Assembly (NCBI RefSeq): GCF_018263905.1
Contig: NZ_JAAFZU010000002.1
Location: 1 to 64,000 of the forward strand
Length of the DNA stretch: 64,000 nucleotides
DNA from: Loktanella sp. SALINAS62
GTDB taxonomy: Bacteria > Pseudomonadota > Alphaproteobacteria > Rhodobacterales > Rhodobacteraceae
Direction of reading: 5' to 3'
A model generated the notes under the pieces. The model saw only the letters and a list, made by a program, of their open reading frames with translations, was not told the origin of the DNA and searched no databases. Both the position numbers and the translations under genes were made by a program. Positions within the stretch are counted from its first letter, which is position 1, and each line of letters opens with the position of its first letter. Below, piece after piece: positions 16,743-50,290 of this stretch.

Positions 16743-19153
16743 GCGTCGCAAAACCACTTCCGCACGATTCGGGCCAACTGCATGTCACCGGTGGCGCACG
16801 GTATATCGACGACATCCCGACGCCTGCCGACGCACTGCATCTGGCGTTTGGCCTGTCGGGTATCGCGCGGGGCCGCATCACCGACATGGACCTGTCCGAT
16901 GTGCGGACAGCACCCGGCGTTCACGCGGTGCTGACGGCGGACGACCTGCCCAGCGCCTGCGATGTCAGCCCGTCGAACCATGACGAACCGCTGCTGTCTG
17001 ACGGCACTGTGCATTATGCGGGCCAGCCGCTGTTTCTGGTGGTGGCCGACAGCCACGGTGCCGCCCGCCGCGCCGCCACCCGCGCGCGCGTCACCTATGA
17101 CGCACAGGACCCAATCCTGACGGTAGAACAGGCGCTGGCCGCCGATAGCCGGTTCGAGGACGGCCCCCGCATCTGGACCAAGGGCGACATAGGCCGCGCA
17201 CTTGACGCCGCCCCCCACCGGATCACGGGCCGGATCGACATGGGCGGGCAGGAACATTTCTATCTGGAAGGTCAGGCCGCACTGGCGCTGCCGCAGGAAG
17301 GCGGCGACATGGTCGTCCATTCCTCGACCCAGCACCCGACCGAAATCCAGCACAAGGTCGCAGAGGCATTGCACCTGCCGATGCACGCCGTGCGGGTCGA
17401 AGTGCGGCGCATGGGCGGCGGGTTCGGCGGCAAGGAAAGCCAGGGCAACGCGCTGGCCGTCGCCTGCGCCGTGGTCGCGGCACATATGCAGCGCCCAGCA
17501 CGGATGCGTTACGACCGCGATGACGACATGATCATCACTGGCAAGCGTCACGATTTCCGCATCGATTACGACGCGGGTTTTGACGGCAGCGGGCGTCTGC
17601 TGGGTGTCGATTTCACCCATTACGCGCGCTGTGGCTGGGCGATGGACCTGTCGCTGCCGGTGGCCGACCGCGCGATGCTGCATGCGGACAATGCCTATTT
17701 GCTGGCGGCCTGCCGGATCACGTCGCACCGGTTGAAAACCAACACCCAAAGCGCCACCGCGTTTCGCGGCTTCGGCGGTCCGCAGGGGCTGCTTGGTATC
17801 GAACGGGTGATGGATCACGCGGCGCATGTGCTGGGGCTGGACCCGGTCGCGGTGCGCCGGATCAACTATTACCGCGCAATGAACGCCGTCGGAGGGGGGC
17901 CGTCTGCCCCCCGGCCTGCGGCCCCCCCCGAGAGTATTTCAGGCAAGATGATGCATGCGGACATCGCGTCACGCGGATCGCAGACCGTGGCCGACGACCG
18001 TCATGCCGTCGATGCAGGTCATGTGAATACGACGCCCTATGGCATGACAGTGGCGGATTTCATCCTGCACGACATGACCGACAGGCTGTTGACGACATCG
18101 GATTATGCCGCCCGGCGCACGGCGATCGCCGCATGGAACGCCGACCAGCCGCTGATGAAACGCGGCATCGCGTTTTCACCGGTGAAATTCGGCATTTCGT
18201 TCACGCTGACCCACCTTAATCAGGCAGGCGCACTGGTGCATGTGTATCAGGACGGATCGATCCATCTGAACCATGGCGGGACGGAAATGGGTCAGGGGTT
18301 GTTTCAGAAGGTGGCGCAGGTCGCCGCCAGCCGGTTCGGCGTGGACCCGTCCATGATCAAGATCACGGCGACCGATACCGGCAAGGTGCCCAACACCAGT
18401 GCGACGGCGGCGTCGTCGGGCGCGGATCTGAACGGGATGGCGGTGGCCAACGCCTGTGACACGATCCGCGACCGGATCGCCGCCTGTTTGGCGGAATTCC
18501 ATCAGGTGGCCCCCGATACGGTACGGTTCGGTGACGGACAGGTGCAGGTCGCGGGCGATACGATGTCGTTCGAAAAAGCCGTGACAACCGCCTATCAGAA
18601 CCGCGTCAGCCTGTCGGCCACGGGTTTCTACAAGACACCCGACCTTGCCTGGGACCGGATCGCGGGACAGGGGCGGCCGTTCTTTTATTTTGCGCAGGGC
18701 GCCGCCGTGACAGAGGTCGTGATCGACACGTTGACCGGCGAGAACCGGATTTTGCGCACCGACGTGCTGCATGACGCCGGCACGTCGCTGAACCCGGCAC
18801 TGGACATCGGCCAGATCGAAGGCGGCTATGTGCAGGGTGCGGGCTGGCTGACGATGGAAGAACTGGTCTGGGACGACAGGGGCGTGCTGAAAACCCATGC
18901 CCCCAGCACCTATAAGATTCCCGGCTGTGGCGACCGGCCCCGCATCTTTAACGTGGACCTGTGGGACCAGCCGAACCCGGCGGCGACGATCTACCGGTCC
19001 AAGGCGGTGGGTGAGCCGCCGTTCATGCTGGGTGTCTCGGCGTATCTGGCGCTGTCGGACGCCTGTGCCGCCTGCGGGCCGCACTGGCCCGACCTGCAAG
19101 CGCCCGCCACGGCAGAGGCGGTGCTGGCCGCCATCGCCCGCGCTACCGGATGA
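16739..19153 (+). CDS. xdhB: Xanthine dehydrogenase molybdopterin-binding subunit
   Basis: Catalytic subunit that carries the molybdenum cofactor. The 804 residues include the [14 protein letters not shown] substrate-channel motif, [12 protein letters not shown], the FRGFGGPQG loop, HGGTEMGQG and the C-terminal [12 protein letters not shown] with the catalytic Glu. Residues about 384-415 are unlike the family: they are encoded by a GC palindrome and a copy of an interspersed repeat (17889-17956) that stayed in frame, reading [13 protein letters not shown] then SISGKMMH. The family normally continues from NYYRA directly towards TTPYGM, so this is an in-frame insertion in a surface loop. The gene is otherwise complete. 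Confidence 0.94.
17889..17956 (+). repeat. Interspersed repeat copy A, in frame inside xdhB
   Basis: A GC palindrome (GGAGGGGGGC ... GCCCCCCGG, then CCTGCGGCCCCCCCC) followed by GAGTATTTCAGGCAAGATGATGC-type core at about 17932-17955. Same core as copies B and D. This copy lies within an open reading frame and adds about 25-30 residues to XdhB. Confidence 0.85.
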
Positions 19154-19893
19154 CCGGCATCCGTATCACAGTGGCACGCACGGCAGGGTCCGTCCCGCGC
19201 GAGGCAGGCACCGCCATGTGGGTGGGGCCAGACCGCACCCATGGGACCATCGGTGGCGGTGCGCTGGAATGGGATGCCATCGCGCAGGCCCGTCGCATGC
19301 TGGCGGATGGGGCGACGCAGGCGCGTCAGGTCATACCGCTGGGACCGGCGCTGGGCCAGTGCTGCGGCGGGTCGGTCACGCTGGAATTTGTCGCAGCCGA
19401 CATGCCGGACAGGCCGCAGGGTCCACCACTGTGGATTTACGGGGCGGGGCACGTCGGGCGGGCGCTGGTCGATGTGATCGCGCCCCTGCCCGACTGGTCG
19501 ATCACATGGGTCGACGATGCGGCGGACCGGTTTCCGACAGCGATCCCAGACGGGGTGACGCCGCTGGTCGCCGCCGACATGACGCAGGGCGCGCGTCACG
19601 CACCGGATGATGCGGAACATCTGATCCTGACATATTCACACCGCATCGACCTTGACCTGTGCCACGCCATCCTGTCCCGGCCGTTTTCCGGTGCGGGCCT
19701 GATCGGATCAGCGACGAAATGGGCGCGCTTTCAGTCTCGGTTGCGGGTGTTGGGGCACACACCTGCCCAAATCGCACGCATTGCCTGTCCAATAGGCGAT
19801 CCAGCCTTGGGAAAACACCCGCAGGCCATTGCCATCAGCGTCGCAGGCGCGATGATACGCCGCACCGCCGCAAGACAGGAACGCCACGCATGA
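19150..19893 (+). CDS. xdhC: Xanthine dehydrogenase accessory protein XdhC
   Basis: Binds molybdenum cofactor and helps sulfurate and insert it into XdhB. The 247-residue protein has an N-terminal XdhC/CoxI domain (GSVPREAGTAMWVG, GTIGGGALEWDA, LGPALGQCCGG with the conserved double Cys) and a C-terminal Rossmann domain (LWIYGAGHVGRAL). The ATG overlaps the xdhB stop, and the stop overlaps the start of the ABC ATPase in the same way, so the xdh genes and the transporter appear to form a single transcript. Confidence 0.93.
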   Translation: MTGIRITVARTAGSVPREAGTAMWVGPDRTHGTIGGGALEWDAIAQARRMLADGATQARQVIPLGPALGQCCGGSVTLEFVAADMPDRPQGPPLWIYGAGHVGRALVDVIAPLPDWSITWVDDAADRFPTAIPDGVTPLVAADMTQGARHAPDDAEHLILTYSHRIDLDLCHAILSRPFSGAGLIGSATKWARFQSRLRVLGHTPAQIARIACPIGDPALGKHPQAIAISVAGAMIRRTAARQERHA

Positions 19894-21413
19894 GGGACAC
19901 GCTGCTGACGCTTGAAGGGCTGACCAAGGCCTATCCGGGCGTTGTCGCCAATCGCGACGTGTCGTTTGACATCGGAAAGGGAGAGATCCACGCGTTGCTG
20001 GGTGAAAACGGGGCTGGCAAATCGACGCTGGTCAAAACGATCTACGGGCTGGTCAAACCCGACAGTGGCCACATGACGCTGGACGGCCGCCGCTTTGCCC
20101 CGGACGATCCTGCCGCCGCGCGGCGCGCCGGCGTCGGCATGGTCTTTCAGCACTTTTCCCTGTTCGACGCATTGACGGTTGCCGAAAACATCGTGTTGGG
20201 CATGGATGCCCCCCCCAGCCCCCGCGCCATCGCGGCAGAGGTGCGGCGCGTTTCCGACCTGTACGGTCTGCCGCTGGACCCCGACCGGACCGTAGGCGAC
20301 CTGTCGGCGGGCGAACGCCAGCGGGTCGAAATCATCCGCTGCCTGCTGCAGGATCCCCGTCTGCTGATCATGGATGAACCGACGTCCGTGCTGACCCCGC
20401 AAGAGGTGGACATCCTGTTCACTACCCTGCGCAAGCTGTCAGGCGAAGGCACCGCGATCCTGTATATCAGCCATAAACTGTCCGAAATCGCGGCCCTGTG
20501 CGAAGCGGCCACCGTGCTGCGGTTGGGCGCGGTCGTGGCGACCTGCGATCCACGCACGACGGCACCGCGCGACATGGCTGAATTGATGGTCGGTCAAGTG
20601 CTGCAATCGCCCGTGCGCGCAGCCCGACCCGCGGGCCGGATGGCGCTGGAATTGCGCGGGTTGTCCGCGCGGGCACCGCACCGGTTCGGCACCGCACTGC
20701 GCGACATCACTGTCGCCGTCCGGGCCGGAGAGGTGCTGGGCATCGGCGGTGTCGCGGGCAACGGTCAGGACGAACTGGTCGCGGCCCTGTCGGGCGAAAT
20801 GCCGGTCGCGGCGGACATGGTCTGGTTCAACGGGTCGCCTGTGGGAAGCGATCCGGTGAATACGCGCCGCGCCAATGGATTGCTGTGCGCGCCAGAGGAA
20901 CGGCTGGGCCATGCCGCAGCCCCCGACATGACATTGACCGAAAACGCCCTGCTGACCGGTGTTACCCGCAAGGGACTGGCAAGGCGCGGTTTCCTGCGCT
21001 GGCCGCAGGCGCGCCATTTCGCCCAAGAGATCATCGCCGGTTTTGACGTGCGCACGCCGGGGCCGGAGAACACGGCCCGGTCGCTGTCGGGTGGTAACCT
21101 GCAGAAATTCGTCATCGGACGCGAAATCATGCAAGACCCGCAGGTGTTTGTCGTGAACCAGCCGACATGGGGCGTCGATGCCGCCGCTGCCGCAGCAATC
21201 CGGCAGGCGCTTTTGACGCTGGCCGACAACGGCGCGGCGGTGATCGTGATCTCTCAGGATCTGGACGAGTTGATGGAGATATCGGACCGCTTCTGTGCGT
21301 TGACCGAAGGCCGGCTGAGCGAGCCGCGTCCCGCACGTGGCCTGACGGTCGACCAGATCGGGATGATGCTGGGTGGTGCACACGATATGGAGGTCGCGCA
21401 TGTTGCGAAATGA
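19890..21413 (+). CDS. BMP-type nucleoside ABC importer, ATP-binding protein
   Basis: A 507-residue protein with two ABC domains. The first has an intact Walker A (GENGAGKST, 38-46), signature LSAGERQRVEI and Walker B LLIMDEPTSVL. The second has a weak Walker A (GVAGNGQDEL) but a good LSGGNLQKFVIGREI signature, the pattern of sugar/nucleoside (RbsA/YufO) ATPases. It starts at ATG 19890 overlapping xdhC. Placed after xdhABC and before two permeases and a BMP lipoprotein-like binding protein, it most likely powers uptake of purine nucleosides or bases. Confidence 0.92.
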   Translation: MRDTLLTLEGLTKAYPGVVANRDVSFDIGKGEIHALLGENGAGKSTLVKTIYGLVKPDSGHMTLDGRRFAPDDPAAARRAGVGMVFQHFSLFDALTVAENIVLGMDAPPSPRAIAAEVRRVSDLYGLPLDPDRTVGDLSAGERQRVEIIRCLLQDPRLLIMDEPTSVLTPQEVDILFTTLRKLSGEGTAILYISHKLSEIAALCEAATVLRLGAVVATCDPRTTAPRDMAELMVGQVLQSPVRAARPAGRMALELRGLSARAPHRFGTALRDITVAVRAGEVLGIGGVAGNGQDELVAALSGEMPVAADMVWFNGSPVGSDPVNTRRANGLLCAPEERLGHAAAPDMTLTENALLTGVTRKGLARRGFLRWPQARHFAQEIIAGFDVRTPGPENTARSLSGGNLQKFVIGREIMQDPQVFVVNQPTWGVDAAAAAAIRQALLTLADNGAAVIVISQDLDELMEISDRFCALTEGRLSEPRPARGLTVDQIGMMLGGAHDMEVAHVAK

Positions 21414-21457
21414 GGGACGCCTGCGGCGGGCGAGTATTTTTGGCAAGATGATGCAAC
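21413..21457 (+). repeat. Interspersed repeat copy B, after the ABC ATPase gene
   Basis: Directly after the ATPase stop: CCTGCGGCGGGC then GAGTATTTTTGGCAAGATGATGC (about 21432-21454). It forms most of the gap before the permease GTG at 21468. Confidence 0.85.
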
Positions 21458-21467
21458 GGGTCGCGCT

Positions 21468-22553
21468 GTGATCGTTCTGGAAAAACGCCCGATGCCATCG
21501 CAGGTCTGGGCCTGGGCCGCACCCCTGATGGCTGTGGCACTGACCATGCTGCTGGGCGGCTTTTTGTTCGCCGCACTTGGCAAGAACCCGGTGAGCGTCA
21601 TACGGACGATCTTTTGGGATCCGTTGTTTTCGGAATTCGCGTGGTTCTATCGCCCACAGATCCTGATCAAGGGCGCGCCATTGGTGCTGATCGCCATCGG
21701 GCTTAGTTTCGGGTTTCGCGCCGGTGTCTGGAACATCGGGGCCGAAGGTCAGTATATCGTCGGCGCCATTTGTGGCGCGGCGGTGGCGCTGGCGCTGTAT
21801 CCAATGGATGCCCGCTGGCTGATCTTTCCGCTGATGGTGGTGGCGGGCGCGCTGGGCGGCTGGGTCTGGGCGATGATCCCCGGTGTGCTGCGCGTACGCT
21901 TTGGCACCAACGAGATTCTGGTCAGCCTGATGTTGGTCTATGTCGCGGAACAATTGCTGTCCGGCATGGCGCTGGGCGCGATGCGCAACCCTGACGGCAT
22001 GGGATTTCCCGGCAGCCGCAATCTGGCGCAATACCCGTCGGCGGCAAACCTTGATCTGATCGCAGGGACCGGGATGCACTGGGGCGTCGTGTTTGCGCTG
22101 ATCGCTGTCATTTTTGCCTATGTCACACTGTCGCGGCACCTGTTCGGCTTTCAGGTGCGGCTGGCCGGACAGGCGCCGCGCGCCGCACGGTTCGCAGGCG
22201 TCAACCCGGCGCGGATGATCCTGCTCTGTATGGGTATTTCCGGCGCACTTGCAGGGGTTGCCGGGTTGTTCGAGGTTGCCGGTCCGTCCGGCCAGATCAG
22301 TATTGATTTCAACGTCGGCTACGGGTTCACCGCGATTATCGTGGCGTTTCTGGGGCGCCTGCATCCACTGGGCATTCTGGCCGCAGGCGCGCTGATGGCG
22401 CTGACCTACATCGGCGGCGGCATCGCGCAAAGCCAGTTGGGCCTGCCTGCCGCCGCGATCAGCCTGTTGCAGGGGATGCTGCTGTTCACCCTGCTGGCGG
22501 TCGATGTGCTGACAAATTACCGCGTCCGGTTTGGCCGCAGAGAGGTGGCGTGA
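21468..22553 (+). CDS. BMP-type nucleoside ABC importer, permease 1
   Basis: A 361-residue BPD_transp_2 membrane protein with about nine to ten helices. It shows the family blocks LVLIAIGLSFGFRAGVWNIGAEGQ and VRFGTNEILVSLML. The annotated start is a GTG; an in-frame ATG eight codons later (21492) is an alternative and neither has a strong binding site, perhaps because the repeat copy B sits just upstream. It pairs with permease 2, whose start overlaps its stop. Confidence 0.9.
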   Translation: MIVLEKRPMPSQVWAWAAPLMAVALTMLLGGFLFAALGKNPVSVIRTIFWDPLFSEFAWFYRPQILIKGAPLVLIAIGLSFGFRAGVWNIGAEGQYIVGAICGAAVALALYPMDARWLIFPLMVVAGALGGWVWAMIPGVLRVRFGTNEILVSLMLVYVAEQLLSGMALGAMRNPDGMGFPGSRNLAQYPSAANLDLIAGTGMHWGVVFALIAVIFAYVTLSRHLFGFQVRLAGQAPRAARFAGVNPARMILLCMGISGALAGVAGLFEVAGPSGQISIDFNVGYGFTAIIVAFLGRLHPLGILAAGALMALTYIGGGIAQSQLGLPAAAISLLQGMLLFTLLAVDVLTNYRVRFGRREVA

Positions 22554-23467: not shown

Positions 23468-23490
23468 GGCGACCAACAGGAGAGAAAACA

Positions 23491-24570: not shown

Positions 24571-24595
24571 GTTCTGCGCCTGAACGACGGATCGG

Positions 24596-24621
24596 GGGCG
24601 GCCTGCGGGTCGCCCTTTTTT
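24596..24621 (+). terminator. Terminator of the xdh/BMP transporter operon
   Basis: GGGCG (24596-24600) pairs with CGCCC (24611-24615) around a 10-base loop, followed by a run of six or more T. It lies 26 bases after the binding-protein stop. Confidence 0.6.
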
Positions 24622-24711
24622 CTGCGCCATGACAGGTCGCGCAAGACCTTGCTTGCAGGGGCGTCGTTTTCGGCATTCGATGGGACAGCATAACCCGAAA
24701 GGATCGCCCCC

Positions 24712-25194: not shown

Positions 25195-25200
25195 TCTGCT

Positions 25201-25221
25201 GGGGCGCTAAAAAGGCGCCCC
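25201..25221. terminator. Hairpin between convergent VOC and csoR genes
   Basis: GGGGCGC (25201-25207) and GCGCCCC (25215-25221) form a perfect 7-bp stem with a 7-base loop. No long T-run follows on the plus strand, so termination efficiency is uncertain. Confidence 0.5.
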
Positions 25222-25227
25222 GTCACA

Positions 25228-25500: not shown

Positions 25501-25544
25501 GACGTGAATCCTTCTTGCGGCGACAGGGGTGACAAATCCCCAGC

Positions 25545-25561: not shown

Positions 25562-25584
25562 ACAGACATGATGGAGACAAGACC

Positions 25585-27693: not shown

Positions 27694-28629
27694 ATGACCC
27701 AGCTTCTGACCCGTGATGGAACCGCCCTGTCGCCGTTGACCTTCGGCACGATGCAATTCGGTGGCGACGCCGATGCCACCGCCAGCCGCGCGATGTTCGA
27801 TGCCGCGCGCGCAGCGGGGATCAACCATTTTGACACCGCCGTCGGCTATACCGGCGGCGCGTCCGAACGCCTGATCGGCCCCATGATCGCCGCCGACCGT
27901 GACGCGCTGTATCTGGCGACCAAGGTGGCTTATGCCGGTGGTGCGGGCCGCGCCAACATCCTGTCGATGTTCGACACCTGCCGCAGCCAGTTGGGGCTGG
28001 ACAGCGTCGATCTGCTGTATCTGCACCGCTTCGATCCCGACACGCCGCTTTCCGAAACGTTTGAAACGATGGCCCGCCTGCAATCCGATGGCGCGATCCG
28101 GCACATCGGCGTGTCCAACTATGCCGCCTGGCAGGTGATGAAGGCGCAGGCCATTTGCGCCACCCTTGGCACCCGGATCGACGTGATCCAGCCGATGTAC
28201 AACCTTGTCAAACGACAGGCAGAGGTTGAAATCCTGCCGATGGCAGCCGATCAGGATATCCTCGCCTGCACCTATTCGCCACTGGGCGGCGGGCTGCTGA
28301 CCGGCAAATATGCCCGTGGCGAAAACGGTCGCCTGCGCACCAACGACATGTATGCAGCACGCTATGGCCGCGACTGGATGCACAGCGCCGCCACGGCCAT
28401 GACCGATATCGCCCGCGACGTCGGCACTCACCCCGCGACCCTTGCAGTAGCGTGGGTGGCCCGGCATGCAACCCGCCCTTCGCCCATCGTGTCGGGCAAA
28501 TCGGTCGGACAGCTTGCGCCGTCGCTGGATGCCAACACCTACACCATGTCCGACGCGCTTTATGATCGGATCACGGCGCTGTCACCGACCCCGCCCCCCG
28601 CCACCGACCGGCTAGAGGAAGCGACATGA
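27694..28629 (+). CDS. Aldo/keto reductase
   Basis: A 311-residue (alpha/beta)8-barrel NADPH oxidoreductase. The tetrad is visible: Asp and Tyr in HFDTAVGYTGGASERLIG, Lys in LATKVAY, His in LYLHRFD. The C-terminal cofactor region is GKSVGQLAPSLDANTY. Starts at 27679 and 27694 are both possible and neither has a strong binding site; homologues begin near MTQLLTRDG. The FAD oxidoreductase gene follows with an ATGA overlap, which suggests a shared pathway, perhaps carbohydrate or amino-acid derivative turnover. Confidence 0.87.
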   Translation: MTQLLTRDGTALSPLTFGTMQFGGDADATASRAMFDAARAAGINHFDTAVGYTGGASERLIGPMIAADRDALYLATKVAYAGGAGRANILSMFDTCRSQLGLDSVDLLYLHRFDPDTPLSETFETMARLQSDGAIRHIGVSNYAAWQVMKAQAICATLGTRIDVIQPMYNLVKRQAEVEILPMAADQDILACTYSPLGGGLLTGKYARGENGRLRTNDMYAARYGRDWMHSAATAMTDIARDVGTHPATLAVAWVARHATRPSPIVSGKSVGQLAPSLDANTYTMSDALYDRITALSPTPPPATDRLEEAT

Positions 28630-29699
28630 CTGATTTCATCGTGATCGGCGGCGGCATCGCCGGATTGTCGGCAGCAGCGGAACTGGCCACACTGGGCCAT
28701 GTGACCGTGCTGGAACGCGAACCCCAGACCGGCTACCACAGCTCTGGCCGGTCGGCGGCGCTGTTCGAACAGAACTATGGCAAACCCACGACACGCGCCC
28801 TGAACCGCGCCAGCCGCGACACGCATGCCGCAATGAGTGTGCTGTCACCGCGCGGTCTGATGATTGTCGGGCAGGCGCACGAAACGGATCAGTTCGCCGC
28901 CGATATGGCCGACATGGATCTGCGCCGGATCGATATGACGGACGCCCGCGCGATGGTACCGATCCTGTCGGACGCGATCACCGATGCGGCCTATTTCGAC
29001 GGCGCACAGGACATCGATACCGATTTGCTGATGCAGACATGGATCAAGTCGATCCGCGCCAGCGGCGGGGTGGTGCGGACCGGCATTGACGTCACCGCCA
29101 TCACGCGCACCACGTCGGGCTGGCAGGTGAACATCGGCGCGGACGACGTGCTGGCAGCACCCGTGCTGATCAACGCTGCGGGCGCCTGGGCCGACCGGAT
29201 CGCAGACCTGGCTGGCATTGCACCGTTGGGATTGCAGGCGCTCCGCCGTTCGATGGCCCGTCTGGCCGCACCTGGCGGGCATGATGTCCGCGCCTGGCCG
29301 ATGATCTTTGGACCCGGCGAATCCTGGTATGCGAAACCCGACGCGGGTGCCCTGCTTGTCTCTCCGGCAGAAGAGGACCCGGTCGAACCGATGGACGCCT
29401 GGCCCGACGACATGGTGCTGGCCGAAGGTCTGGCGCGCTATCAGGATGCGGTTACGGTCGCGGTCACACGCCCGATCGCCACATGGGCCGGGCTGCGGAC
29501 CTTTGCACCCGACAGGTCACTTGTACTGGGCCGCGACACTGCCGACCCCAGTTTTATCTGGTGCGCCGGACAGGGGGGATACGGCGTGCAATCATCGCCT
29601 GCCGCCGGACGCCATATCGCGGATGTGGTCGCGGAACGCGCGCCTGCCATCGGCGCCGACGTTGCCGCACAACTGGCTCCGGCGCGGTTCAACCGCTAG
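28626..29699 (+). CDS. FAD-dependent oxidoreductase (DAO family)
   Basis: A 357-residue flavoprotein related to D-amino-acid dehydrogenases and glycine/sarcosine oxidases. The FAD-binding GxGxxG is at the N-terminus (VIGGGIAGLSAAAELA), with HSSGRSAALFEQNYG after it and the closing FAD contact in FIWCAGQGGYGVQ. The substrate is unknown; a secondary amine or D-amino acid is the usual guess. It overlaps the aldo/keto reductase gene and converges on a Hint-domain gene, with a repeat copy between. Confidence 0.87.
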   Translation: MTDFIVIGGGIAGLSAAAELATLGHVTVLEREPQTGYHSSGRSAALFEQNYGKPTTRALNRASRDTHAAMSVLSPRGLMIVGQAHETDQFAADMADMDLRRIDMTDARAMVPILSDAITDAAYFDGAQDIDTDLLMQTWIKSIRASGGVVRTGIDVTAITRTTSGWQVNIGADDVLAAPVLINAAGAWADRIADLAGIAPLGLQALRRSMARLAAPGGHDVRAWPMIFGPGESWYAKPDAGALLVSPAEEDPVEPMDAWPDDMVLAEGLARYQDAVTVAVTRPIATWAGLRTFAPDRSLVLGRDTADPSFIWCAGQGGYGVQSSPAAGRHIADVVAERAPAIGADVAAQLAPARFNR

Positions 29700-29765
29700 G
29701 GCTTCTTCTTGCCATAAATATCCCGGGGGAGTCCGCAGGACGGGGGCTGGCCCCCACCTGACCGC
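29700..29765 (-). repeat. Interspersed repeat copy C, between convergent genes
   Basis: On the minus strand: GGGGGCCAGCCCCC palindrome, CCTGCGGACTCCCCCGGG, then ATATTTATGGCAAGAAGAAG (ending near 29702). Oriented like the minus-strand Hint gene and placed directly after its stop. Core of the GAAGAAG subtype, shared with copies E and F. Confidence 0.85.
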
Positions 29766-29768: not shown

Positions 29769-30803
29769 TCAGGCCACGCAGGCCATCAGTTCCCAGCTGC
29801 GCAACGTCGTGAACGCTGCATCGTGGCTGTGCCCGCCGACCCGCAGTTCCGGAAACAGGGTAAACAGCTCTGCGCGGGCATCGGGCGACATGGTCGCGAT
29901 CACTTCTTCACCGGGGTGAAAGCTTTCGGTTGCCGCACCTTCGGCAAAGATGACCTCGTGCCGATCAAAAACGAGTTGAACATACGTGATTTCGGACAGG
30001 CCACTGTCGACATAGACCTGCTCGAACGTGGCGGCCATGGATTTTGCGCGGATGAATACCGCGTCTTCCCCGAACAGCAGCGGCACCCTGATGCTTTGAT
30101 ACAGCATCCGGTGCTGTGGGCTGACCCACAGATTGCGTTGCGGCAGACCAAATCCCATGGCACCCGCCTGAATGCAGACCGGCCAAAGCTTGCGGTTATG
30201 CCGCAGGTCGTCCCCCTTGATGCGGCGGCTGTGGATCATGCGGACCGGTCGTGCGTCACCATCCCATGTCGTGACCAGATCACCGACCCGCAAGTCATCG
30301 ATCAGTCGCGCACCATCCGGCGTGTCGATCAGCGTGCCCGCGGTCAGGCAGATCGGCACCGCATCGACATCCCACGCCGTGTCCAGCCGGTGGCCGTGGG
30401 CATCGAACACGATGCTGTCACCGATGGGTGGCGTCAGGGCGGTGGCCACATGGCCGACCGCCGGCCCGTCCAGCGCGGTGAGCGGGCTTGCCAACGCATA
30501 AAACGACGCCACGCCGCCCGTGGCTATCGCATCTATCAGGGCAATCGCGCGGCCGCCCTGTCCCGGATCCGCCAGTGGAACGCTCAGATCAAACATGAAC
30601 CAGCCCGTTTCGGTGTCGACCACAGGCGCCACATCGGCCAATGTGACAACCTGCATCACATGACCATCAACATGATAAAACGCGATTGAAAATTGCGCGA
30701 TCCGATCCATATCGGAATAGTCAGCGACGACCTTCACTTTGCCCGCGCTGGGTGTCGTCAATGCTATCGCCGTGGGGTATGTGATCGTCGAAACGAAAGC
30801 CAT
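29769..30803 (-). CDS. Hint-domain protein (apparently active)
   Basis: A 344-residue protein. Residues 1-145 form a beta-rich N-terminal part of unknown function (TYPTAIALTTPSAGKVKV, FDLSVPLADPGQGG). Residues about 150-315 are a Hint (Hedgehog/intein) domain: splicing-type Cys152 in CLTAGTLIDTPDG, LRVGDLVTTWDG, the SPQHRM block with His231, and FDRHEVIFAEG. All the usual catalytic positions are present, so self-cleavage or thioester chemistry is possible. There is no signal peptide. A strong CGGAGGA site precedes the ATG at 30803. Rhodobacteraceae carry many such proteins; their role is unclear. Confidence 0.85.
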   Translation of the reverse strand: MAFVSTITYPTAIALTTPSAGKVKVVADYSDMDRIAQFSIAFYHVDGHVMQVVTLADVAPVVDTETGWFMFDLSVPLADPGQGGRAIALIDAIATGGVASFYALASPLTALDGPAVGHVATALTPPIGDSIVFDAHGHRLDTAWDVDAVPICLTAGTLIDTPDGARLIDDLRVGDLVTTWDGDARPVRMIHSRRIKGDDLRHNRKLWPVCIQAGAMGFGLPQRNLWVSPQHRMLYQSIRVPLLFGEDAVFIRAKSMAATFEQVYVDSGLSEITYVQLVFDRHEVIFAEGAATESFHPGEEVIATMSPDARAELFTLFPELRVGGHSHDAAFTTLRSWELMACVA

Positions 30804-41925: not shown

Positions 41926-41975
41926 CAAAATTCTCCTTTGCCAATAACCTAGTCATTGGATGGCACGGGTCACAC

Positions 41976-42017
41976 CCCTGCATGCATCATCTTGCCTAAA
42001 ATACTCAAACCGCCGCG
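41976..42017 (-). repeat. Interspersed repeat copy D, after the permease gene
   Basis: On the minus strand: CGCGGCGG then TTTGAGTATTTTAGGCAAGATGATGC-type core ending near 41980, immediately after the stop codon of the amino-acid permease gene. Core of the GATGATGC subtype, shared with copies A and B. Confidence 0.85.
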
Positions 42018-42833
42018 TCAGCGGCGCAGTCCCCGTTCGAACCGGCGCAGCAGGATGGACAGCCCGATGGTCATCGTCAGATAGATCAGCGCCACCACGT
42101 TGTAGGTTTCGAAATACCTGAAATTGCCCGCCGCCGTGATCTTGCCCAGTTGTGTGACGTCCGCGACGCCGACCACTGATACCAGCGACGAATCCTTGAC
42201 CATCGCCACGAAATCATTGCCCAGCGGCGGCAGGATGGTGCGCAACGCCTGCGGCCAGACGATATGCCGGAACCGCTGCCAGCCGGACAATCCCAACGCT
42301 TCCGCCGCTTCGATCTGGCCTTCGTCTACCGACTGCAACCCGGCGCGGAACACCTCTGCCAGAAACGACGCATAGGCCAGTGTCAGGGCGATGATCGCCC
42401 GCCACAGCAGGCTGAAATCGCGGGTCCGCGCCTCTGGCAAGCCCAGCGCGTTCCAGCCACTCACAAGGGCGGGCGCCAGCACAAAGGCCACGTAGAGCAA
42501 CAGCACGATGATCGGGATGCCGCGCATGACCTCGACATAGAACCGCGCGATCTGGCGCAGCACCTTTGACCGCGACAGCGCCATGACCGCCAGCAGCAGC
42601 CCCAGCCCGCAGGCCATCACATAACTGACGACCGCCACGAAAACGGTGATCCGGATGCCCTTGGCCAGCGTGCCCAGCACCCCGTCATAGGCATCGTCTG
42701 TGGCGATCTGAAAGAACATCCAGACGCCCAGCCCGGCCACGGCCACCAACCACCACGGAAAATCGCGATCCCCGGACGGCGCAGGCGCCACGTCCGCCGC
42801 CCGACGTCGCTTATTCGCCCATCTTGAAATCAA
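42018..42833 (-). CDS. Amino-acid ABC transporter permease
   Basis: A polar-amino-acid type permease of about 257-271 residues. It has the conserved EAA loop ([21 protein letters not shown]), ILPPLGNDF and [14 protein letters not shown], typical of HisM/GlnP permeases, with about five helices. Two starts are possible: a TTG at 42833 that overlaps the binding-protein gene, or a GTG at 42791 just after it; neither has a good binding site. The binding protein precedes it, but no ATPase or second permease gene is in the cluster, so the importer must borrow an ATPase encoded elsewhere. Confidence 0.88.
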
Positions 42834-43590: not shown

Positions 43591-43633
43591 GGTATCCCCC
43601 AAGGATGTAATCGCGTTCGACATTGGCGCGGGC

Positions 43634-44683: not shown

Positions 44684-45132
44684 GCGTCAGTTCCCGTCGA
44701 TCCAAACCCGCCCGCGCCCCGTGCGGTCGTATCCAGCCCATCTAGGGCGAAATCCGCCCGCACCACGGGGACCGCGACAAGTTGCGCCACCCGCATCCCA
44801 TGAAGCACCGTGAAATCCGCAGTGCCCAGATTGACCAGCAGCACGCCGACCTCTCCGCGATAATCGCTGTCGATGGTGCCGGGCGCATTCGCGACCGTCA
44901 CGCCATGCTTGAACGCAAGCCCGGACCGGGGCCGCACCTGCACCTCGTACCCTTCCGGAATGGCCAGCCGCAGCCCCGTCGGCACAAGCACGCGCGCACC
45001 CGGCGCCAGCGTCAACACGCCGCGGTCCGGCAGATTGGCACAGACATCGGCCCCTGCAGCCCCGGCACTCGCATAGCGCGGCAAGGGCAAGCCTTCATCC
45101 GCCCCGTCCACAAAGGCTGCGGCGATCCTCAT
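44680..45132 (-). CDS. dut: dUTP diphosphatase
   Basis: Hydrolyses dUTP to dUMP, keeping uracil out of DNA and feeding dTMP synthesis. The 150-residue trimeric enzyme shows the five motifs: [47 protein letters not shown] and the C-terminal [10 protein letters not shown]. It lies between coaBC and the ThiF/MoeB gene. The coaBC-dut order is common in alphaproteobacteria. A repeat copy fills most of the gap upstream. Confidence 0.95.
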
Positions 45133-45135
45133 GTC

Positions 45136-45190
45136 TGTCCCATTCTTCTTGCCAAAAATATCCGCCCCGCCGGCGAGGCGTCCCGCAGCC
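45136..45190 (-). repeat. Interspersed repeat copy E, between coaBC and dut
   Basis: On the minus strand, directly after the coaBC stop: GGCTGCGGGACGCCTCGCCGGCGGGGCG palindromic part followed by GATATTTTTGGCAAGAAGAATG (core about 45141-45163). It separates two co-directional genes and lies about 10 bases ahead of the dut ATG. Confidence 0.85.
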
Positions 45191-46384
45191 TCATGCCAGC
45201 GCCCCGGCCAGTTTTTGTGCCAGACGGCGCGCGACCGCAGCCTTGTCCATGCGGGGCCACGCCTCTGTCCCGGTCTCGGTGATCAGCGTTACAGCGTTTT
45301 CGGTCCCGCCCATGATCCCGGTGCCGTCGGACACATCGTTGGCGACGATCCAGTCACAGCCCTTGCGCGCCCGTTTGGCAGTCGCATTGGCCAGCACATC
45401 CTGCGTTTCAGCAGCAAACCCGACCACAAGGCGCGGGCGCTGCGGCCCCTGAACGGACACGGCGGCCAGAATGTCGGGATTTTCTGCAAAGGCCAGCGTC
45501 GGCAGCCCGTCCTTGGTCTTCTTGATTTTCTGCGTGCCCGCATTGGCGACATGCCAGTCCGCGACGGCAGCCGCCATGACGCAGGCGTCGGCGGGCAGCG
45601 CCTGCATCACCGCATCATGCATCTGCCGCGCGGTCTGCACCCGCACCAGCGCCACGCTATCCGGCGGCGGCACATCGGCAGGACCGGTCACGAATGTCAC
45701 CCGCGCGCCCAGCCCTACCAGCGCCCGCGCAATCGCCGTGCCCTGCGCGCCAGAGGACCGGTTTGCGATATAGCGGACCGGATCAATCGGTTCATGGGTC
45801 GGACCGGATGTCACGATTACATGGCGGCCACGCAGCGGACCATCCGCCAGCCGTGCGGTGATCGCGGCCAGGATATCTTCGGGTTCGGCCAGCCGTCCGG
45901 GGCCGAATTCACCGCAGGCCATGTCGCCGTCATCCGGGCCGACGAAATCCACCCCATCGGCGCGCAACGTCGCCAGATTGCGCTGTGTCGCGGGATGCTG
46001 CCACATCCGCACATTCATCGCGGGGGCCATCAGCACGGGCGTATCGGTCGCCAACAAAAGCGTCGTTGCCAGATCGCGCGCCTGTCCGGTTGCGGCCTGC
46101 GCCATCAAGTTCGCCGTCGCGGGGGCCACCACGATCAGGTCCGCCACCCGGGACAGTTGGATATGGCCCATCTCCGCCTCGTCCGTCAGGTCGAACAGCG
46201 CGTCATAGACCTTTTCCCCCGCCAGCGCGGCCACGCTTAGCGGGGTGACGAATTCCCCGGCCGCCCGGGTCATGACCGGTGTCACCGCAGCCCCCGCACC
46301 ACGCAGCAGCCGGATCAGCAGCAGGGATTTATAGGCCGCGATACCGCCGCCGATGATCAACAGGATTCGTTTGCCGTGCAGCAT
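45191..46384 (-). CDS. coaBC: Bifunctional phosphopantothenoylcysteine decarboxylase/synthetase
   Basis: Makes 4'-phosphopantetheine in coenzyme A synthesis. The 397-residue protein has the flavoprotein decarboxylase first ([48 protein letters not shown] with its conserved PXMNxxMW) and the ligase second, with CTP-binding [21 protein letters not shown] and [10 protein letters not shown] and the Lys in GADVLVAN-like [13 protein letters not shown]. Linked in pathway to panBC in this window. It is the first gene of a run with dut and the ThiF/MoeB gene. Confidence 0.95.
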
Positions 46385-46445
46385 GGGGTGCCTCGCAAGT
46401 GTCGGTCACAGGTGTAGGCAGGGCGCGCCTGCGATGCAACGCCGC

Positions 46446-47219
46446 CTAGCGCGCAAGCGTCAGGCAGGGATCGGGGCGGTCAAACGGATCGGTCACATTC
46501 ACCGCGTCAAAAGGTGCGTCGCCGTCAGGTGCGGCTTCCAACTGGCCCAGCGACCAGACCGTCAGGTCAGGTGCCAACTGCGCCAGCAGCGCAGGCACGC
46601 CGGTATCGGTGCGCGCATGCCCGTTGCCGGTGATGACGACAACCGGACCGCCGGTGTCGTCGTTTGCATCACGCGCGGCCAGCGCCAGCGTGGCGTCGCG
46701 CAATCGCTGTGCTTCGACCATGCCGGGCAACATGTCATCGGGCAACATCCCGCAATGCGCATCGCGCTGGTCCGCGACCAGCCTGTCATAGACAGCGCCC
46801 GACCGGGGCCACAGGTTGAACCCCACCGTGCCAACACCCAGCACCGACGCCGCATCGCTGGCCATCGCCGCCATCAAGTCGTCACGGGCGACATCCGCCC
46901 CGACAATCGTCGCAGCGGGGGCCGCCAGAAAGATCGGGTGATACATCGTGAAATCCGGCCAGCCTTTTTCATCCCAACGCAGTGCGTCGGCCAGCGCATC
47001 GGCGTCTGTGATATCGACCACAGCCGCTGCATCCGCCGCCGTGATCATTTCGAACACCAGCGCCTTGGGTGCGATCCGGGCCACCAGCGCGGCCTGCATC
47101 GCGTGATGGGCGGGATTGTCGTGGACCTCTCCCAATACGTAAACGTCGGCCCGTGGCAGCGGGCCGACGTCGGCGGCCGCAGGCACGGCCGCACAGCACA
47201 ACAGCGCGAGCAGGCGCAT
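46446..47219 (-). CDS. ChaN-like (DUF399) protein
   Basis: A 257-residue exported protein with a signal peptide (RLLALLCCAAVPAAADV). The mature part has VYVLGEVHDNPAHHAMQAALV, the signature GEVHDN..H of the ChaN family of haem/iron-responsive lipoproteins, and GNGHARTDTGVPALL near the end. The precursor has cysteines after the hydrophobic stretch, but no clean lipobox, so anchoring is unsure. It follows rpoH, the ATG overlapping the sigma-factor stop (an ATG pair at 47222 and 47219), so it may be coupled to rpoH expression. Confidence 0.82.
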   Translation of the reverse strand: MRLLALLCCAAVPAAADVGPLPRADVYVLGEVHDNPAHHAMQAALVARIAPKALVFEMITAADAAAVVDITDADALADALRWDEKGWPDFTMYHPIFLAAPAATIVGADVARDDLMAAMASDAASVLGVGTVGFNLWPRSGAVYDRLVADQRDAHCGMLPDDMLPGMVEAQRLRDATLALAARDANDDTGGPVVVITGNGHARTDTGVPALLAQLAPDLTVWSLGQLEAAPDGDAPFDAVNVTDPFDRPDPCLTLAR

Positions 47220-48097
47220 CATGCGAAAAAATTCATCACTTCCCGGCTTTGGGATTCAAGGTTCTTGCGCATCTTGCCGAATGCCGCGGCTTCCAGTTGG
47301 CGCACACGTTCCTTTGACAAACCCAGTTCTGTGCCCAGGCTTTCCAGCGTCCGGGGATCGTCGCGCATCTTGCGTTCGCGCACGATGAACCGTTCGCGGT
47401 CGTTCAGATCGGACAGCGCGGTCAGCAGCCAATTGCGCAGGCAGGCGTTGTCATGGGTCAATTCCACATGCTCGGCAGCCTGAGAGCTGTCGTCTTCCAG
47501 CGCGTCGATCCATTCCCGGCCCTCGTCCTCTGACGATTGCGTCGCGTTCAGCGAATAGTCGGAACCTGACAGACGGCCTTCCATCATTTCGACGTCATGC
47601 AGCGGCACGCCCACTTCGGTCGCGATCAGCTTGCGCATCACATGGCCTTCCAGCTTGCGGCCTTCGGCAGCGGCTTCGCGTTCCAACCGGGCCTGCACGC
47701 GGCGCATGTTGAAAAACAGCGACTTCTGACTGGACGTGGACCCGGTGCGCACCATCGACCAGTTCCGCATCACATAGTCCTGGATGCTCGCCTTGATCCA
47801 CCACACGGCATAGGTCGAAAACCGCACACCGCGATCGGGGTCGAACTTTTCGGCGGCCTTCATCAGGCCAACGGATGCTTCTTGGATCAGATCGTTCATC
47901 GGGGCGCCGTAACGCTTGAACTTCGCGGCCATCGAAATCGCCAGTCGCATATATGCGGTGATCAGCCGATGCAGCGATTCCTCGCACCGTTCGTCGCGCC
48001 AGGCATAGGCCAGACGAAGTTCTGTTTCTGCGTCCAGCAATTCAGCCTTCATCGCTGTCCTGGACAATTTCTGATCCGAAAATCCGTCAAAGGCCAT
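47219..48097 (-). CDS. rpoH: RNA polymerase sigma-32 factor, RpoHII type
   Basis: Directs RNA polymerase to heat-shock and, for the RpoHII type, oxidative (singlet oxygen) stress promoters. The 292-residue sigma factor has region 2 (MNDLIQEASVGLMKAAEKFD, FSTYAVWWIKASIQDYVMRN) and region 4 (LESLGTELGLSKERVRQLE). The RpoH-box region reads SLFFNMRRV, unlike the main RpoHI QRKLFFNLR. The start ATG 48097 follows GGGGGAAGAACA; the frame is open 21 codons further. It is divergent from cobU and followed by the ChaN-like gene. Confidence 0.92.
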   Translation of the reverse strand: MAFDGFSDQKLSRTAMKAELLDAETELRLAYAWRDERCEESLHRLITAYMRLAISMAAKFKRYGAPMNDLIQEASVGLMKAAEKFDPDRGVRFSTYAVWWIKASIQDYVMRNWSMVRTGSTSSQKSLFFNMRRVQARLEREAAAEGRKLEGHVMRKLIATEVGVPLHDVEMMEGRLSGSDYSLNATQSSEDEGREWIDALEDDSSQAAEHVELTHDNACLRNWLLTALSDLNDRERFIVRERKMRDDPRTLESLGTELGLSKERVRQLEAAAFGKMRKNLESQSREVMNFFA

Positions 48098-48187
48098 TGT
48101 TCTTCCCCCTGAAGCTTGCTGTTTGTCATCCGGTACGGATACAGCTTGAACCTGCACCAAGAACGCGAGTGGGGGAATTTTAGTTCC

Positions 48188-48715
48188 GTGAAAAAGTTGC
48201 AGCGCGTCACTTTCGTTCTAGGAGGTGCATCCTCTGGCAAGTCTGTCTGGGCCGAACAATGCGTGATCGGCACGAATTTGCCACGCATCTATCTGGCGAC
48301 CGCGCAGGCCTTCGATGACGAAATGCGCGCAAAGGTCGCACAGCATCGCCACCAGCGTGGCCCCGATTGGACAACCGTCGAAGAACCGTTGGAAATCCCG
48401 CAGGTCCTGCGCGATCAATCCGCCGGTGCGATTGTGCTGCTGGATTGCGTGACCCTGTGGCTGTCCAACGTGCTGCTGGCCGGACGCGACACGGATGCCG
48501 CCTGCGCCGATCTGCTGGCAGCGGTCGCAACCGTTCCGGGTCCGCTGGTCATCATCTCGAACGAGGTCGGCATGGGCATCGTCCCGGACAACGCGCTATC
48601 GCGCAGGTTCCGCAGCGCCCAGGGTCGTCTGAACCGCGATCTGGCCGCCAGCGCCGATACCGTCGTCGCCGTCATGGCGGGCCTGCCACTGGCACTAAAG
48701 GGCGATCTGCCGTGA
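48188..48715 (+). CDS. cobU: Adenosylcobinamide kinase/guanylyltransferase
   Basis: Phosphorylates adenosylcobinamide and transfers GMP to it in the late steps of B12 assembly (named cobP in aerobic producers). The 175-residue protein has the P-loop GGASSGKSVWAEQ, the guanylylation-site stretch IYLATAQAFDDEMRAKVAQHRHQR with its conserved His, and LLDCVTLWLSNVLLA. The start is probably the GTG at 48188, about 12 bases after GGGGGA; the frame continues upstream with residues unlike homologues. The stop overlaps the GTG of the phosphatase gene. Confidence 0.9.
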   Translation: MKKLQRVTFVLGGASSGKSVWAEQCVIGTNLPRIYLATAQAFDDEMRAKVAQHRHQRGPDWTTVEEPLEIPQVLRDQSAGAIVLLDCVTLWLSNVLLAGRDTDAACADLLAAVATVPGPLVIISNEVGMGIVPDNALSRRFRSAQGRLNRDLAASADTVVAVMAGLPLALKGDLP

Positions 48716-49284
48716 CGTCGCTTTGGCTGGTCCGGCATGGGCCGACTCATCAAAAAACGATGACCGGCTGGCGTGACGTGCCTGCCGATCTGTCCGATAC
48801 CGCCGCCCTATCACGGCTGAACGCGTTTCTGCCACAGGGCGTGGTGATATCTTCGGATCTGACGCGCGCCATCACGACCGCAGATGCGATCCAGGGCAGT
48901 CGCCACCGCTTGCCCCACCACCGCGCGTTGCGCGAAATGGATTTCGGCGCATGGGACGGCCTGCACCATACCGAAGTCACCGCGCGCGATCCGCAATTAT
49001 CGCGCGACTTCTGGGAAACCCCCGGCGATCTGACCGCACCGGATGGCGAAAGCTGGAACGCCCTGACGTCCCGCGTCACCAAAGCGATCGATGCGATCAT
49101 CGCGGACATGGCCCCGCCTCATCTGATTGTGGTGGCGCATATGGGTGTCATCATGTGCCAGTTCCCCCGTGCGGGCGGCACGCCTTATCAGGCCATGGGA
49201 CACAGTCTCGACCCGCTGGGCGTCAGCCGCATGGATCTGGGGCCGGACGGCTGGACATTGGCGCAGGTCAATCATCGCCCGTGA
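48712..49284 (+). CDS. cobC: Histidine phosphatase, CobC-like (alpha-ribazole phosphatase)
   Basis: A 190-residue phosphatase of the RHG family. LWLVRHGPTHQKTMTGW has the RHG catalytic His, SSDLTRAITTADAI the second Arg pattern, ALREMDFGAWDGLHH the Glu, and VVAHMGVIM the last His. GTG start with a four-base overlap to cobU, which points to the CobC role of removing phosphate from alpha-ribazole phosphate. Supplies B12 steps that the class II ribonucleotide reductase in this window depends on. Confidence 0.85.
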   Translation: MTSLWLVRHGPTHQKTMTGWRDVPADLSDTAALSRLNAFLPQGVVISSDLTRAITTADAIQGSRHRLPHHRALREMDFGAWDGLHHTEVTARDPQLSRDFWETPGDLTAPDGESWNALTSRVTKAIDAIIADMAPPHLIVVAHMGVIMCQFPRAGGTPYQAMGHSLDPLGVSRMDLGPDGWTLAQVNHRP

Positions 49285-49362
49285 TGGGGCGCATCACGAA
49301 ACGGCGTTGGCGTCCCCCATCGTCCGCTTGCTAGTTTCTGCCAGCACAGCAAGAGGCGACAC

Positions 49363-50229
49363 ATGACTTACGATCTGTTCATCGGGGACCGCACATTTTC
49401 CAGCTGGTCGCTGCGCGGCTGGCTGATGCTGGCCGCCTTCGATCTGCCGTTCCGCAGCCATACCGTGGGGCTGTACGACGGCACCATGGCCGCCGACCTC
49501 GCAGCGCTGATCCCAGCGCGCACGGTCCCGGTGATGCGCACCCCCGCCGGCGGCGTGCTGACGGACAGTCTGGCCATGGCCGAAACACTGGCGGAATCGC
49601 ACCCGGACGCCAACCTTTACCCGGATGAGCCGCAGGCCCGTGCGCTGGCACGCTCGATGGTGGCCGAAATGCACAGCGGCTTTCACGCGCTGCGTGGCGA
49701 CTGTCCGATGATGCTGGCGCACGGCTGGTCAGGGTTCGTCCCCAGTGCGGCGGTGCGCGCCGATCTCGACCGGATCGAAACGCTCTGGTCACTGGCCCGG
49801 TCACGTCACGGATCGAACGGGCCATGGCTTTTCGGCAGCTATACGCTGGCCGATGCCTTCTATGCCCCGGTGGCCTTGCGGATCGCCACCTATGACCTGC
49901 CGGTCAGCGCCAGCGCAAAGACGTATGTCGACGCCCATCTGACGCACCACCTGATCCGGCAGTGGCGCGCGACGGGGCTGACCCGCAGTTATAACCCGAT
50001 GCCCTATGCGCTGGACCTGCCCAAAACGCCATGGCCCGGCCCCGTCCCTGTGCCTGCGCAGGCGGTTGACACCGGCACACCCGAAAACGACCGCTGCCCC
50101 TACTCGGGCGATCCGGTGACGCATCTGCTGACAATGCAGGACCGCATCTTCGGCTTTTGCAACGCTGTGTGCCGCGACAAGGCAGCGATCGATCCCGCCG
50201 CCTGGCCGCGCTTCATGGCGCTGGTCTGA
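49363..50229 (+). CDS. Glutathione S-transferase with Cys-rich C-terminal tail
   Basis: A 288-residue protein. Residues about 1-80 form a thioredoxin-like GST N-domain (LFIGDRTFSSWSLRGWLML, PVMRTPAGGVLTDSLAMAE) and about 90-205 the helical C-domain. An extra tail (about 236-288) has Cys245, Cys266 and Cys270 in CPYSGDPVTH and FGFCNAVCRDK, followed by DPAAWPRF. This pattern resembles TRASH/YHS-type zinc modules (CP.CG.P ... FC...C ... DP..Y). So the enzyme may bind a metal or a partner. The ribosome site is AAGAGGCGACAC. It stands alone. Confidence 0.85.
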   Translation: MTYDLFIGDRTFSSWSLRGWLMLAAFDLPFRSHTVGLYDGTMAADLAALIPARTVPVMRTPAGGVLTDSLAMAETLAESHPDANLYPDEPQARALARSMVAEMHSGFHALRGDCPMMLAHGWSGFVPSAAVRADLDRIETLWSLARSRHGSNGPWLFGSYTLADAFYAPVALRIATYDLPVSASAKTYVDAHLTHHLIRQWRATGLTRSYNPMPYALDLPKTPWPGPVPVPAQAVDTGTPENDRCPYSGDPVTHLLTMQDRIFGFCNAVCRDKAAIDPAAWPRFMALV

Positions 50230-50290
50230 CCTTCTTCTTGCCGAAAATATCCCGGGGGGCCGCAGGCGGGGGCAGCGCCCCCTCTCCCTT
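50229..50290 (-). repeat. Interspersed repeat copy F, after the GST gene
   Basis: On the minus strand: GGGGGCGCTGCCCCCGCC palindrome, CCTGCGGCCCCCCGGG, then ATATTTTCGGCAAGAAGAAG (core about 50232-50253). Here the repeat points opposite to both neighbouring genes, unlike copies A-E. Confidence 0.85.

Follow-up and report, generated by a model that had tools for sequence, protein, structure and literature searches.

The window analyzed here is a 64,000-nucleotide stretch of Loktanella sp. SALINAS62, namely the first 64 kb of contig C46 in a draft genome of 3.83 Mb and 101 contigs (coded G000 below; relatives are coded G001 onward). It carries six copies of a short repeat in which a GC-rich hairpin precedes a directional tail, and these copies belong to a hairpin-plus-tail family that numbers several dozen per genome across one bacterial family, the Rhodobacteraceae. 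All six copies picked out by an initial annotation of this DNA were located. Their 5' palindrome, which had been described as usually containing CCTGCGG, does so in four of the six (A, B, C, and F). The annotation also had copies B to E follow a stop codon in the same sense, with F as the exception; in fact copy C lies between convergent stops, while F is antisense at the stop of a plus-strand gene. Copy A required a further correction, since it is not intergenic but sits in frame within the xdhB open reading frame at 16739-19153. The features are as follows.

16739..19153, plus strand: xdhB-like gene, large, molybdenum-binding subunit, xanthine dehydrogenase family (Pfam MoCoBD_1, MoCoBD_2, and Ald_Xan_dh_C)
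17889..17956, plus strand: copy A, within the reading frame of xdhB; hairpin module of the three-run kind (G6/C6/second C-run) with a second small hairpin, GGCCTGCGGCC; tail GTATTTCAGGCAAGATGATG at 17934-17953; the site is a variable loop (insert numbered from residue 385; 30 homologues aligned and placed in a tree)
21413..21457, plus strand: copy B, 3' of the ABC-transporter-gene stop (gene 19890-21413); hairpin GGGACGCC..GGCGGG; ATG-type tail at 21434-21453
29700..29765, minus strand: copy C, flanked by the convergent stops of genes 28626-29699 (plus) and 29769-30803 (minus); three-run module; AAG-type tail at 29702-29721
41976..42017, minus strand: copy D, 3' of the permease-gene stop at 42018; TTTGAG type; ATG-type tail at 41985-42004
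45136..45190, minus strand: copy E, 3' of the DFP/flavoprotein-gene stop at 45191; hairpin GGGACGCC..GGCGGGG; AAG-type tail at 45142-45161, its last base T rather than G
50229..50290, minus strand: copy F, antisense; 3 nt separate its core 3' end from the GST-gene stop (gene 49363-50229); three-run module whose C-runs flank GCCTGCGGC; AAG-type tail at 50231-50250

Downstream of copy C, gene 29769-30803 encodes a Hint_2 domain across residues 151-298. A comparison of the window with Rfam gave no hit that reached a gathering score.

Composition and gene context of the family

Within the window, TATTTNNGGCAAGAWGA matched at eight places with up to three mismatches, six of them exactly (0.84 expected; maximum of 100 shuffles, 5). 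Genome-wide, the core has 59 exact and 9 one-mismatch occurrences of TATTTNNGGCAAGAWGA and none in the reversed-sequence control. The part that the copies share is the 20-mer RTATTTNNGGCAAGAWGAWG, which has two linked forms, A..AAG and G..ATG. Since it matched the genome 53, 11, 3, and 9 times at 0, 1, 2, and 3 mismatches, respectively, against a control total of 7, the family is discrete and has no visible decay series.

When all 68 listed copies were laid out in one orientation, the two subtypes proposed in the initial annotation proved to be real and linked: A before TATTT accompanied the AAG form in 35 copies, and G accompanied the ATG form in 32. The exception, L058 (one mismatch, a poor hairpin, and the wrong base before TATTT), is counted among the 68 and is probably not a family member. 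Most copies have a hairpin, which is followed by a tail with the layout RRR-TATTT-NN-12 nt. NN is TT in 28 of 68 copies, so the run past the hairpin is often TATTT alone, and the best-conserved part is the 12 nt beyond the T-run. The 5' modules are more varied. A G-run/C-run hairpin with a second C-run accounts for 38 copies (30 AAG, 8 ATG), GCCTCCGGCGG for 15 (2 AAG, 13 ATG), the TTTGAG kind for 9 (all ATG), GGGACGCC for 5 (3 AAG, 2 ATG), and another module for 1. By these counts, three of the four main hairpin kinds are found with both tails.

There are 61 genomic occurrences of the tail word GGCAAGAWGAWG (control, 2), of which 54 are inside listed copies and 7 outside. One of the latter, at C78:486905, is preceded by TATTTTTT and resembles a copy with a 3-nt spacer; the other six are at C35:245964, C35:337855, C35:495049, C61:21275, C63:53434, and C78:321213, and the one at C35:495049 combines both tail forms. 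Inverted copy pairs ~30 to 160 nt apart were observed at L041 and L049, and such pairs also occur in G006, G011, and G062. Contig C78 has 2 copies in 603 kb; this contig and 89 small ones may be extrachromosomal or otherwise distinct.

Gene context was read from calls made with our own codon-usage script rather than a standard annotator; one round of calls used 50 of 58 own loci and 9 of 10 G062 loci, one ambiguous locus being dropped. The 68 copies comprise 28 tandem sense, 18 tandem antisense, 14 convergent, and 2 divergent cases, 5 inside gene calls, and 1 at a gap; L032 adjoins a run of N and could not be given a class. Divergent junctions are avoided (2 of 62 copies versus 66 of 254 junctions of ≥40 nt in 21 stretches picked for holding copies; P = 2e-5). 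Tandem copies pooled over three genomes show a slight sense excess (51 versus 30; P = 0.026). For 27 of the 32 convergent or antisense copies, no more than 20 nt separate the 3' end of the core from the opposing stop (median, 7); among the 28 sense copies, the next start codon is that close in 13. The classes in two relatives were as follows: 12 convergent, 10 sense, 6 antisense, and 2 divergent among 30 of the 80 copies in G016, and 10, 13, 6, and 1, respectively, among 30 of the 87 copies in G006.

Among the five "inside" copies, copy A and L054 are genuine; L017 falls in a short, weak gene call, and the placement of L030 and L031 is probably due to start-codon calls. The second in-gene copy of this genome is antisense in cobN and leaves the frame open, as does an antisense copy inside putA on a Paracoccus liaowanqingii plasmid (L348, 1440-1560). 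The 3'-end role suggested in the initial annotation is thus upheld insofar as the copies are tied to the 3' flanks of genes and are nearly absent from divergent junctions. Sense-strand termination or RNA processing is not supported as the main account, given the in-gene copies and the 18 of 46 tandem copies that are antisense, although sense copies may act as terminators.

Tail dialects and the copy inside xdhB

The initial annotation had mentioned similar strings from other Rhodobacteraceae, and the family does span the Rhodobacteraceae. In a scan of 61 genomes with the core (≤2 mismatches), counts clearly exceeded the control in most genomes of the same family (37 in the scan) and were close to it in most of the 24 from other families. 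The exceptions among the latter were G042 (25 versus 8 in the control) and G053 (15 versus 2), whose listed matches are nearly all one- or two-mismatch words of varied sequence. A scan of named sequences, with 80 loci listed of at least 107, pointed to Rhodobacteraceae/Paracoccaceae bins or genera with few exceptions. The genera among the matches listed include Roseovarius, Shimia, Rhodovulum, Leisingera, Marivita, and Seohaeicola; the exceptions listed are one contig binned as Bacilli and two bins named just Alphaproteobacteria. The Bacilli-labeled sequence (L191) is a short, probably misbinned contig of a metagenome-assembled genome that carries the element. Seven IMG/VR contigs (L261-L267) have an exact ATG-type tail and are possibly proviral flanks; copy F had no match in phage records.

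The tail is homogeneous within genomes and changes between them. Family genomes with few core matches can carry another tail, as in G013, which has 111 sites of the form CCSSRRRTATTT, most of those listed running on into AAGAGATGAA. The tails observed include GACGAGAAGAAG in G001; GACCAGAAGAAG in G003, G004, G006, and G007; CCAAGAAGT in G009; and GGCMAAATGAAG in G016. In G001, AC[CG]AGAAGAAG was present at 29 of 29 CCCGAGGTATTT sites, and in G009, CCAAGAAGT was present at 10 of 10 CCCGGGATATTT sites; the G000 tail was found at none of the 35 G001 and 18 G009 sites listed. Two CCCGGGATATTT sites in G000 (C3:110054 and C35:177161) bear a third, minor tail, GAAAACAGCGA, a similar one being present in G004; they are possibly fossils of another dialect.

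Comparison of orthologous junctions in five relatives revealed that the tail also changes in place. Most of the relatives that could be compared hold a copy at the same position at junctions B, D, E, and F. Copy B keeps its hairpin and tail in G004/G005 and has a similar hairpin with a wholly different tail in G001/G006, while copy D is near-identical in G004/G005 and has a different tail in G001/G006. The hairpin is unchanged and the tail differs by 1 to 2 nt at junction E in G002/G004/G005 and by 2 nt at junction F in G004/G005, a clean comparison of junction F being possible only there. Silent divergence is saturated at this distance (G000-G004 four-fold identity, 0.562).

The copy inside xdhB is conserved at the nucleic acid level. 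Its loop is occupied by the element, with the frame open, in 15 of 30 homologues, whereas 13 lack it and 2 have possible remnants; in one of the 15, that of G002, the hairpin is kept and the tail is degenerate. The site is common to several genera. Since presence requires 3 changes on the xdhB gene tree, which is poorly resolved in places, versus a shuffled mean of 10.3, an old gain followed by losses is likelier than repeated insertion. Across nine genomes of the genus, four-fold identity of the insert is 0.844 (357/423) versus 0.548 in the rest of the gene, and every 18-residue window outside the insert stays below the figure for the insert (786 scored in all).

Strand orientation and the three-run module

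Orientation was tested in six genomes; draft genomes are among those analyzed, and the relatives are few and not independent. The polarity is strong in G016, significant in G000, and unsettled in the others. In G016, 72 of 80 copies agree with a division of the chromosome into two arms (maximum of 5000 shuffles, 60), and the arm borders, at ~1.13 and 2.79 Mb, match sign changes of the GC skew measured in twenty 20-kb stretches. Because only 54% of the coding around 30 G016 copies is on the element strand, gene direction does not explain this polarity. In G000, the G-rich strand carries 41 of 51 copies in twenty 20-kb stretches plus the window (P = 1.5e-5). Regression over 359 genes gave an element-orientation term of 0.033 (standard error, 0.003) beside a gene-strand term of 0.030. 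Agreement in twenty 20-kb stretches of G011 was 23 of 31. At a 3-kb scale, with the element itself left out, copies were on the G-rich strand in 58 of 68 cases in G000, 26 of 30 in G016, 21 of 30 in G006, 9 of 10 in G011, 7 of 9 in G062, and 6 of 10 in G061. The G-rich strand is the leading strand. In G000, GC skew and element orientation flip together near C35:360-370 kb (within C35:350001-391000; L384 and L385), a switch that may be a replication origin, a replication terminus, or an inversion border.

The word GGGNAGGG, a KOPS (FtsK-orienting polar sequence) word, is polar to the same side (0.82 in G016, 0.91 in G011, and 0.81 in G000), so where the orientation is strong, the element follows the G-rich, KOPS-bearing strand. 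The tail words themselves (GAAGAAG, GATGATG, GGCAAGA, AAGAAGG, and AAATGAAG) give values of 0.43 to 0.67 outside the elements, a few of them significant; on the G-rich strand of G016, G011, and G000, respectively, GAAGAAG is at 0.57, 0.47, and 0.61 and GGCAAGA at 0.64, 0.53, and 0.56.

The commonest module consists of a G-run paired with a C-run and of a second C-run, set off by 1 to 3 nt or by a longer linker that often contains a second small hairpin. In 94 of 114 distinct elements, the stem run and the second C-run are equally long (permutation mean, 40.5; maximum, 58). Of the 24 elements with an asymmetric purine arm (e.g., GAGGGG..CCCCTC..CTCCCC), 13 have its mirror partner as the third run, 0 have its Watson-Crick partner, and 11 have neither; at least two of these last are misread hairpins. 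A strict scan of 1.26 Mb of stretches returned 19 loci with the TATTT tail (asymmetric: 1 mirror, 0 Watson-Crick). Another 12 did not pass the tail rule (2 mirror and 1 Watson-Crick among the asymmetric ones); roughly half of these, the Watson-Crick one included, are elements that the rule trimmed one base short. These runs agree with the mirror-complement criterion of intrastrand triplex repeats, for the three-run module only. They fall outside the ITxF rule (stem ≥6 nt, loops of 1 to 6 nt), most being 4 or 5 nt long and many copies having the linker hairpin. Judged by its sequence, the three-run module appears to follow the intrastrand-triplex rule, with a predicted class III triplex on the tail strand and class I on the other (terms of PMC4666352).

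Polarity is not confined to this module: it was seen for 33 of 39 three-run or unclassed copies, 14 of 15 GCCTCC copies, 5 of 5 GGGACGCC copies, and 6 of 9 TTTGAG copies. Triplex avoidance was therefore rejected as an explanation of the polarity.

Explanations and comparison with known systems

Their orientation in some genomes, the tails that differ between species, and the in-gene copy make the copies look more like a DNA-level signal than like ordinary gene ends. The reading that we rank best, and hold only tentatively, is that the copies are directional DNA sites whose tails are recognized by a putative co-evolving factor. Such a chromosomal hairpin repeat would act as DNA and not mainly as RNA. 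Its variable GC-rich 5' hairpin module would precede a constant directional tail, which is probably bound by a putative trans-acting factor that works in the direction of fork movement. Within a lineage, changes in the factor and in the tail would go together, and dialects would result, whereas an old copy would keep its place and often its hairpin. We infer that a protein reads the tail, that it has a role in replication, segregation, or recombination, and that the sites are kept by selection rather than by copying. We prefer this factor-site reading because of the dialects, the kept places and hairpins, the constraint in xdhB, the fork orientation, and the location at gene ends on either strand.

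Several observations weigh against it. Copies are few, with a density of about one per 56 kb, and unevenly spread, with 0 in 89 contigs totaling 1.13 Mb where 20 were expected; no density gradient from origin to terminus was significant (P = 0.18 in G016 and P = 0.15 in G011). The two-arm test of the whole chromosome is weak in G006 (58 of 84, a value reached in 196 of 5000 shuffles) and falls short of significance in G011 (30 of 39; P = 0.08), G062 (27 of 41; P = 0.72), or G061 (14 of 18; P = 0.48). In G000, only 11 of 18 antisense copies are on the locally G-rich strand, versus 28 of 28 sense copies, so gene direction accounts for part of the local signal. The dialect is not unique to one species, since the GGCAAGATGATG tail is shared by G000, G004, and G007 and GGCAAGAAGAAG by G000, G011, and named genera. 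Hairpins are not always kept either: at junction B in G002 the hairpin has changed as well as the tail, and at junction E in G001/G006 both module and tail are different. Sites also turn over, junction C being empty in G004/G005 and one G004/G005 site being empty in G000; these two sites gave no clean insertion boundary or target duplication because their flanks are too diverged. Finally, no tail-reading factor turned up, although no sequence search aimed at one was made.

A close rival, if a doubtful one, is a nonautonomous mobile element of the repetitive extragenic palindrome (REP) or miniature inverted-repeat transposable element (MITE) kind, moved as single-stranded DNA at the fork on the lagging-strand template. 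Movement as a single strand would give the orientation bias seen in G016, and old copies would be kept passively in harmless places. Elements of the IS200/IS605 type couple transposition to the replication fork. The hairpin with its asymmetric conserved end, the dozens of dispersed copies, the avoidance of divergent junctions, the occasional inverted pairs, and the gain and loss of copies between related species all accord with mobility. The Y1 (RAYT) transposase family PF01797, however, has 0 members in G000 and is present in 2 of the 23 family genomes searched, so a RAYT-driven REP was rejected. Nor was a transposase or recombinase found beside the copies in the 25 most frequent of 152 Pfam families (77 of 129 neighboring proteins), although the remaining families may include a single linked one. 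The xdhB site, shared across genera and conserved at silent sites, the near-absence of decayed copies, and the re-assortment of hairpin and tail types, which are not inherited as one unit, also speak against a mobile element.

Less likely is an intrinsic terminator or an mRNA 3'-end stabilizer or processing site, in which a GC hairpin would be followed by UAUUU. The position of copies right after stops, their depletion at divergent junctions, the slight sense excess, and a stem that ends 0 to 7 nt from TATTT in many copies are as expected of such a site. The antisense tandem copies and the open-frame copies in xdhB, cobN, and putA are not, and the reading is weakened further by the orientation of the copies. 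The T-run is short, and the strongest conservation lies past it and varies between species. PMC4666352 reports that PIT/BoxC/TM repeats, among them the triplex repeats of Escherichia coli, stalled DNA polymerase in vitro and had no promoter or terminator activity.

Uptake words have dialects in Neisseria. A DNA-uptake-type sequence whose dialects spread by biased uptake would fit the dialects, the in-gene copies, and a gene-end location like that of the uptake words in Neisseria terminators (PMC1852404), but it is very improbable and was rejected, since 54 of 61 tail words are inside composite copies and the ~68 copies compare with hundreds for uptake words (PMC1852404).

If the tail is read by a factor, the sites document how a DNA-recognition code shifts over an entire bacterial family, and they represent an oriented chromosome signal in addition to KOPS. 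If the repeat is mobile instead, it is so without a known REP transposase, and its orientation bias points to replication-coupled movement. The xdhB copy, held in one loop across genera with its silent positions conserved in the genus, makes the nucleic acid constraint directly testable. Taken as a whole, it is possible, though we think it rather unlikely, that these repeats form a so far unnamed class of fork-oriented DNA signals of the Rhodobacteraceae, consisting of a hairpin (sometimes triplex-capable) and a factor-read, co-evolving tail, whose dozens of dispersed sites, one within a protein gene included, switch dialect together in place.

Among the titles and abstract openings searched, none describes this repeat family in Rhodobacteraceae, subscription papers being mostly outside reach, and the accessible parts of PMC7866481, PMC7901474, PMC12306157, and PMC2267715 hold nothing on it. 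With REP elements and their RAYT transposases, as described in PMC2817692 and PMC3733652, the family shares a hairpin with a conserved asymmetric end, dispersed and mostly intergenic copies, and more than one subfamily in a genome. It differs in the lack of a RAYT-type transposase in G000, the in-gene copies that are kept, the tails that change at orthologous sites, and the apparent absence of GTAG or CGTC tags common to the copies. Of the 68 upstream 60-nt stretches, 6 contain GTAG, 4 CTAC, 14 CGTC, and 18 GACG.

With KOPS the repeat has in common a strand preference and purine richness. The KOPS word GGGNAGGG is the one used in PMC13342612, whose strain set includes Cereibacter and Paracoccus. 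In contrast to KOPS, the element is a composite of 40 to 70 nt, is present in a far smaller number of copies, and has tail words that are less polar on their own; KOPS was rejected as its identity because the strongly polar word is GGGNAGGG and not one of these tail words. The uptake sequences found in terminators of Neisseria and Pasteurellaceae (PMC1852404) are likewise repeated words at gene ends with species variants, but they differ in copy number, and free-standing words are few here.

A further comparison is with PIT/BoxC/TM-ECO of E. coli and other bacteria (PMC4666352). Both are short, dispersed, G/C-rich repeats with a few dozen copies per genome, both have a third run that is the mirror (Hoogsteen-type) partner of the purine arm, and both occur as inverted pairs. 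Unlike in PIT/BoxC, the three runs here occur in a single 5' module out of several (38 of the 68 G000 copies) and are mostly 4 to 6 nt long, largely under the ITxF threshold. Whereas the E. coli motif is described there as always intergenic and without strand bias, copies here also lie in genes and in some genomes are oriented with the G-rich strand. The run order differs as well, being purine-loop-pyrimidine-pyrimidine on the tail strand, followed by the conserved TATTT and the dialect tail.

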